Of a stretch of DNA of 64,000 bases, positions 14,908 to 52,580 are shown in pieces. Every line of letters begins with the position of its first letter. Position 1 is the first letter of the stretch. A program made the translations under genes and the position numbers. Origin of the DNA: Bacteroidales bacterium (GTDB taxonomy: Bacteria; Bacteroidota; Bacteroidia; Bacteroidales; Paludibacteraceae); contig DUQG01000008.1 of NCBI GenBank assembly GCA_012837935.1, positions 89,395 to 153,394 on the forward strand, in the 5' to 3' direction. The notes under the pieces were generated by a model, which searched no databases, had not been told where the DNA came from, and worked only from the letters and a program-made list of their open reading frames with translations.

Positions 14908-14971
14908 TCATTTTAAATCATTGCATTCTAAGATTTTAAATTAATTTGATTATTTTTGTTGTTAAATGTGA

Positions 14972-15167
14972 ACTCGTCTCGACTTTTAAAACATAGAGAA
15001 CAATAGTTAAATATATGAGCATTTTTTATTGTTTTTCGAGAACATAGTAAAAAAAATCAAACCTGCCTGCTGCAGGCGGGGATTTTTTTCGCTATTGTTT
15101 CCGAAATCACGAGAATATGCACGTTTTTTTCTATGTTTGCTATTGTTTTGAAAAAATCAAGATGACT
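14972..15167 (+). repeat. Long-hairpin dispersed element, copy A (with 19-bp GC-rich palindrome at its apex)
   Basis: ACTCGTCTCGACTTTTAAAACATAGAGAACAATAG...CTATGTTTGCTATTGTTTTGAAAAAATCAAGATGACT; nearly identical to 33633-33808. Confidence 0.9.
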
Positions 15168-15196
15168 TCTGTAAATAAATTAACCATCAACAGTTT

Positions 15197-33603: not shown

Positions 33604-33632
33604 AAAGGTCAACAAAAAAATGTATTGATTGG

Positions 33633-33808
33633 ACTCGTCTCGACTTTTAAAACATAGAGAACAATAGTTAAATATATGAACATTTTTTATTGTTTTTCGA
33701 GAATATAGTAAAAAAATCAAAGATTTTTTTCGCTATTGATTCCGAAATTCTGAGAATATGCACGTTTTTTTCTATGTTTGCTATTGTTTTGAAAAAGTCA
33801 AGATGACT
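33633..33808 (+). repeat. Long-hairpin dispersed element, copy B (no apex insert)
   Basis: ~96% identical by eye to 14972-15167 outside the 19-bp insert. Confidence 0.9.
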
Positions 33809-33850
33809 TTATTAGAAACAATTGTAGAAAAAGAAATTAAATAACAAAAT

Positions 33851-48888: not shown

Positions 48889-48910
48889 TTTATGAGAAAT
48901 GTGTTTTTAA

Positions 48911-49077
48911 CGTTATCTTGACTTTTGCAAAACAATAGCAAACATAGAAAAAATATACATATTCTCTTCTCGTGGTTTCGCTATCCGCCTATGTCGGACA
49001 AGTTGTTCTCGGAAAACAATAAAAAATGCTCATACATTTAAACTATTGTTTTCTATGTTTTAAAAGTCGAAACGAGT
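48911..49077 (-). repeat. Long-hairpin dispersed element, copy C (apex replaced)
   Basis: Reverse complement starts AACTCGTTTCGACTTTTAAAACATAGAAAACAATAG and ends CTATGTTTGCTATTGTTTTGCAAAAGTCAAGATAACG. Confidence 0.85.
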
Positions 49078-49084
49078 TCTTTAA

Positions 49085-52314: not shown

Positions 52315-52359
52315 TAGATTAAGTCGTCTAAAAGTAGTATTTTTGTTTGTTTTTTAGAA

Positions 52360-52545
52360 AGTTATCTTGACTTTTTAAAAACAGTAGTAAACATAGAGAA
52401 AATTGTGCTCATTCTCTTGATTTCGGAAACATAGAGAAAAAAATCGAAGATTTTTTTAAACTATGTTCTCGAAATTCTATAAAAAACGGAAAACAAAGTC
52501 AAATATTAAACTATTGTTCTCTATGTTTTAAAAGTTAAGATGAGC
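52360..52545 (-). repeat. Long-hairpin dispersed element, copy D (diverged)
   Basis: AGTTATCTTGACTTTTTAAAAACAGTAGTAAACATAG...ACTATTGTTCTCTATGTTTTAAAAGTTAAGATGAGC. Confidence 0.8.
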
Positions 52546-52580
52546 TCAATTCTAAGAAAAGCTTTTGAAGTGGAGGATTT

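Follow-up and report, generated by a model that had tools for sequence, protein, structure and literature searches.

A new MITE family with IS5-type ends and a probable conserved hairpin module in Paludibacteraceae

Four dispersed repeats with shared ends lie in a 64-kb stretch of a Bacteroidales genome from the family Paludibacteraceae (64,000 nucleotides, hereafter the window). They raise the question of what kind of element they are, since the original prediction had offered a MITE, a REP-like element, a structured RNA and an mRNA-stability element, and of what their repeated inner words might do. The overall explanation that we favor, with a probability of about 70%, is a new MITE family with an IS5-family vehicle, together with a conserved hairpin module that is used with at least two sets of termini.

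Copies in the window and in the genome

The four repeats aligned with each other from end to end, and the conserved motifs at their ends occurred four times each in the window compared with 0.00–0.02 occurrences expected by chance, indicating that the predicted copies and their shared ends are real. When copy B (176 bp) was used as a BLAST query against its own genome (2.80 Mb, 85 contigs), 52 matches at ~40 places were obtained, with identities ranging from 100% to below 70%, which bears out the expectation of many copies in the genome. According to the positions of open reading frames, all four window copies are intergenic and none contains a reading frame, as had also been predicted. Their lengths, 171–200 bp, are below the 600-bp limit for MITEs. 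True ends were set by the terminal inverted repeats (TIRs) together with the target-site duplications (TSDs); the copies were located correctly in the original prediction, but their exact ends lie ~2 bp further out on each side.

Copy A (14970–15169, plus strand, 200 bp; locus L006) was delimited by a TIR/TSD scan with inspection of the flanks, and is bordered by TGT on both sides (14967–14969 and 15170–15172). Its left TIR (14970–14987, plus strand) reads GAACTCGTCTCGACTTTT, and its right TIR (15152–15169, minus strand) reads GAAGTCATCTTGATTTTT on the minus strand. Between them, the hairpin core (14991–15146, plus strand) contains six words, namely ACATAG at 14991, ACAATAG at 15000 and ACATAG at 15042 in the left arm, and CTATTGT at 15092, CTATGT at 15131 and CTATTGT at 15140 in the right arm. 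The usual apical loop is replaced in copy A by an additional GC-rich palindrome (CCTGCCTGCTGCAGGCGGGG, 15062–15081), which was also found in L025 and L109. Copy B (33631–33810, plus strand, 180 bp; L001) is flanked by ATT on both sides, and copy C (48909–49079, minus strand, 171 bp; L058) by TTT on both sides, the apical stem being missing in the latter. Copy D (52358–52547, minus strand, 190 bp; L013) has slightly decayed TIRs and no exact TSD.

Copy C also carries an insert of ~20 bp at a CA^TAG word, the core of which (TCCGCC-N4-TCGGAC) lies at 48985–48999 on the plus strand of the window. In several copies, the CTA^TG (CA^TAG) word is interrupted by the same TCCGCC-N4-TCGGACAAGT unit, which occurs in either orientation and in one case tandemly repeated; the sites include G000 C53:54082-54297, C76:184-398, C61:26112-26323 and C74:45810. 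The unit has 14 matches in the genome, compared with none for a reversed-pattern control. In addition, loose ACATAG/CTATGT arrays with TCCGCC units and no TIR were observed in the same genome at L053 (~1500–1560) and L059 (~1460–1640), which are possibly remnants of another subfamily.

Ends, insertion and the candidate transposase

The TIR is 18 bp long, with GAACTCGTCTCGACTTTT at the left end and GAAGTCATCTTGACTTTT at the right end, read inward, and TIRs of this type were present in seven of the eight genomes of the genus. In a scan of all loci, 34 of the 43 TIR-delimited elements had an exact 3-bp TSD, compared with a mean of 3.8 and a maximum of 12 in 10,000 shuffles, and the duplication reached 4 bp in one element only. 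Empty sites were also observed. The copies at L018 (C59:33019) and L021 (C33:75148), both without recognizable TIRs, lie between genes of conserved order, and no element was present in the syntenic gaps of five and six congeners, respectively, indicating that these copies are insertions in the lineage of this genome. The congeners used are distant (50–78% protein identity), so the two insertions may be old. At L023 and L036, two species each have an element in the corresponding intergenic region; since the two elements are oppositely oriented and have different downstream genes, we rejected an orthologous insertion and took them as independent.

Copy B had no match in the phage and plasmid collections, and the IS5-type left end with the first word had none in the genome contig collection, from which the genome itself and very near genomes are possibly absent. 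No described repeat family that fits the element was found in the literature. The repeats are copies of a new non-autonomous element, constituting a new MITE family; the TIRs, the 3-bp TSDs, the empty sites and an autonomous partner that shares the TIRs agree with the MITE assignment among the original proposals.

The partner was found in a congener (G005, C114:661-1604) as a 944-bp element with perfect TIRs identical to those of the MITE and ATT on both sides as the TSD. Its transposase reading frame has one internal TAA, and in a second transposase copy (G001:C175) the frame runs without a stop as far as the contig reaches. The partner transposase matched NF033580 (IS5) with 123 bits against a cut-off of 110, as well as PF13340 and PF01609. 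Its nearest named relative is ISBf6 (62% identity over 95%), identified in the plasmid collection on Bacteroides plasmids, whose TIR GAAGTGATTTAAACTT resembles that of the MITE in the pattern GAAGT-AT-T-ACTT. The ISBf6-like insertion sequence and the MITE have only the TIR in common, their interiors being different and the MITE lacking a reading frame. These sequence comparisons support well the proposal that an ISBf6-like IS5-family transposase would spread the MITE in trans by acting on the common 18-bp ends and duplicating 3 bp of the target, and we regard this part of the explanation as close to settled. However, a search of the own assembly yielded no ISBf6-like IS5 transposase gene, which counts against the favored explanation.

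REP and REPIN elements with RAYT genes (PMC3116915, PMC3733652) are likewise dispersed palindromic intergenic repeats, and RAYT-type genes exist in this genome, where Y1_Tnp gave seven matches, one of them (C50:2760-3104) near a decayed element end. A REPIN-like element mobilized through its hairpin by such a transposase, instead of by IS5, would fit these observations. When the surroundings of Y1_Tnp genes were scanned for the words, however, no word clusters were found around 26 of the 27 genes examined. Furthermore, the element is much longer than a REP or REPIN and has DDE-transposase TIRs and TSDs, and both its TSDs and its TIRs, which match those of the IS5 element perfectly, point elsewhere. 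We consequently discarded RAYT mobilization as extremely unlikely, and the REP-like proposal found no support.

The same IS5-type TIRs also bound other interiors: a ACTACGAATnnCACGAA hairpin at two sites of the own genome (G000 C46:8472 and C68:6696) and a ATTCCAGCGGAATTTAATATTTGTAG hairpin in three congeners (G003, G004 and G007). At L052, the left third of a copy runs straight into one of the ACTACGAA elements. Two or more additional MITE families have this TIR around hairpin interiors of short words (ACGAAT-type and ATTTGTAG-type), at L074, L080 and L052 in the own genome and at L067, L073, L077, L083 and L091 in congeners.

The hairpin core and the persistence of its words

The interior of the element consists of three word pairs that form a stem around an apical hairpin, the words being CATAG and CARTAG. 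The left arm of the core reads ACATAG, ACAATAG, a spacer and CGAGAACATAG; the apex reads AAAAATATC-TTC-GATATTTTT; and the right arm reads CTA(T)TGTTTCCG, a spacer, CTATGTTT and CTA(T/C)TGTTTT. In most copies, the left and right words of a pair differ in length by one base, with the sides alternating. This length asymmetry is nearly constant in the two outer word pairs and variable in the innermost pair, and the two copies of one congener (G006) depart from this pattern, both of their right words reading CTATG. To our knowledge, such an alternating word stem has not been described for Correia elements or ERIC. One copy of another congener (L032, 384–701; G005:C115) has an additional insert of ~90 bp in its left spacer and a GC-rich apex.

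Folding as single strands agreed with the predicted long hairpin, since copies A and B gave z-scores of −7.2 and −4.6, respectively, against dinucleotide shuffles. Within the genus, however, 94.8% of cells pair in the long stem compared with 93.8% in shuffles, and there is almost no covariation; a single covarying pair, with UA, AU and CG forms, was found in the apical helix. In an arm-swapping analysis of spacer covariation, the left and right spacers of the same copy paired no better than swapped ones. Between genera, the result was different. A covariance model of the core picked up relatives in 10 of 250 genomes, which represent three genera of the family and comprise Paludibacter and neighbors (Paludibacter sp. 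bins and Bacteroidales bin_63, family Paludibacteraceae). As all words of the sister genus read CACATAG or CACARTAG, compared with AACATAG in the own genus, each word pair has C-G in place of A-T at its first base, a change that affects both arms and was seen in 9, 7 and 8 of 10 sequences for the three pairs. This concerted change is compatible with base pairing in a hairpin or with a protein that has two-fold sites.

As to the original proposal of a structured RNA, word pairs covary between genera, and neither an Rfam match nor appreciable covariation within the genus was found. A trans-acting structured RNA gene present in many copies, such as a riboswitch or an sRNA, would account for the stable long hairpin, for the covarying apical pair and for the word-pair changes between genera. 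Nevertheless, Rfam gave no match, pairs within the genus are almost unchanged with no spacer covariation, and copies are missing at orthologous loci in congeners, all of which make such a gene very unlikely.

We then consider how the words are conserved relative to the rest of the element. Five copies with decayed ends (L018, L019, L021, L022 and L107) have both TIRs near background (4–8 of 14), except for residual traces, for example GTCAAAAT beside L018. Their words are off consensus at 1–3 of 73 positions, and about a quarter to 40% of their spacer positions differ. The words are more diverged in L109 and L111 (7 and 10 of 73). In a set of nine young copies, variable columns were found in 5 of 73 word positions compared with 30 of 107 others (Fisher p = 0.0004), the latter comprising 7 of 28 in the TIRs, 15 of 51 in the spacers and 8 of 28 elsewhere; this test is partly circular because the choice of word columns relied on the same or related alignments, and the contrast between TIRs and words is less so. 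Private changes in the young copies similarly affected 5 of 73 word positions and 20 of 107 of the rest (p = 0.03).

The same word skeleton was also found between other ends. Core relatives in three genomes (G163, G209 and G245) have IS5-type TIRs. In the single-contig genome G008 of the sister genus, the skeleton lies between unrelated, non-IS5 ends (TAAGTAAATGATAATTATTG...). There, as well as in MAG bin_63 and in a Paludibacter bin, the skeleton has two apical hairpins and lies next to TAAGTAAATGATAATTATTGTTGATATGTTTT, and G008 has an imperfect inverted copy of TAAGTAAATGATAATTATTGTTGATATGTTTT on the opposite flank. No transposon partner of these TAAGTA-type ends was found. In three Paludibacter-type copies (L251, L268 and L281), the apex of the CATAG core harbors nested hairpins of CGCAAAT words, apparently separate elements, and a Chitinophagales MAG (L250 and L256) has a double word CACATAGTTCACAATAG within a tandem repeat of ~47 bp.

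An ordinary selfish MITE might explain conserved words as well, if successive master copies needed the hairpin to transpose and if the copies lacking ends were younger than those ends suggest. All MITE hallmarks are present, species-wise subfamilies are visible in the alignment (A2), and the several other interiors on the same TIR in the genus indicate that the vehicle is indifferent to its cargo. Set against this, the end-decayed copies keep their words far better than their spacers, private changes in young copies avoid the words, and G008 has the same skeleton between non-IS5 ends. We take the selfish reading seriously, while considering it rather doubtful. The comparison of words, spacers and ends instead supports a module whose words would be maintained after insertion and which, within the family, appears between two or more unrelated kinds of termini. 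Gene conversion between copies may be a point against the favored explanation, as are the scarcity of covariation within the genus, the spacers that pair no better than swapped ones and the lack of a detected positional bias.

Genomic placement and possible role of the module

The genes around 32 copies are codirectional in 20 cases, divergent in 11 and convergent in one, and no bias in orientation or position was detected relative to the mix of intergenic regions across 464 kb of this genome. Gene orientations around the copies fit random intergenic insertion. Many copies are located close upstream of start codons, and copy A lies 27 bp upstream of an alpha-amylase-family gene.

This placement could also suggest a mobile outward promoter, in which the word CTATGTTTG would be the Bacteroidota −7 box TAnnTTTG and would bring promoters to neighboring genes; many copies of the own genome carry TATGTTTG in their right arm. 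Promoter activity has been reported for BrickBuilt, a MITE of Porphyromonas gingivalis with tandem 23-bp direct repeats (PMC4596501). BrickBuilt resembles the present element in that it is intergenic, belongs to Bacteroidales and has a repeated inner motif between IS-type ends without a transposase remnant. However, its tandem direct repeats and its TIRs differ, whereas here the words are inverted pairs in a hairpin, and the present core, unlike BrickBuilt, crosses genera and termini. TAnnTTTG was found 17 times in the copies compared with 10.4 in shuffles (maximum 18), which is within the shuffle range, and none of the copies shows a TTG box at 19–24 bp (TTG-N19-24-TAnnTTTG in the arms: 0 observed, 1.0 expected), so that a −33 partner at the right distance is missing. 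Moreover, the last G is not conserved, and the corresponding word of the sister genus is CTATGTGT. The promoter reading was rejected on these grounds as improbable.

Because copies lie close upstream of start codons, the hairpin would fall in 5′ leaders. RNase III processing has been reported for Correia-element transcripts (PMC2649163, PMC10969869), and processing of this type in 5′ leaders would be a reasonable model for the present hairpin. Correia (CREE/NEMIS) and ERIC elements are similarly short imperfect hairpins next to genes, although no sequence relation is claimed, and the present element differs from them in its 3-bp TSD and its IS5 partner.

Under the favored explanation of a MITE vehicle with a conserved module, the region between the MITE ends would be an older module conserved in its own right, forming a long but imperfect hairpin of three word pairs with CATAG opposite CARTAG and alternating sides in most copies. 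Its words would be kept after insertion, and it would be carried by at least two unrelated terminus sets. The hairpin might be active in the transcript of a host gene or operon, or as extruded DNA, with a host protein reading the words and with selection against decay of the module. Action as a nucleic-acid hairpin recognized by its words in this way is the function that we consider most likely, tentatively and at somewhat less than even odds. A stronger version is possible, though we lean against it: the CATAG-word hairpin would be an independent, long-lived module not tied to one transposon, selected where it has landed, with its words changing in concert on the two arms from genus to genus, and packaged between unrelated termini (IS5-type in one lineage and TAAGTA-type in another).

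A bacterial MITE is usually viewed as the disposable leftover of a single insertion sequence. The present family does the opposite of what is expected of a leftover, its interior being retained while the ends decay and vary by lineage. If the module is indeed independent, it would be a cargo hairpin with a host-recognized code, and not a plain deletion derivative of an insertion sequence. Recognition of the hairpin words, if true, would imply a new protein or process of Bacteroidales that reads them, and the ~40 loci in this genome would provide a countable set for testing such reading.
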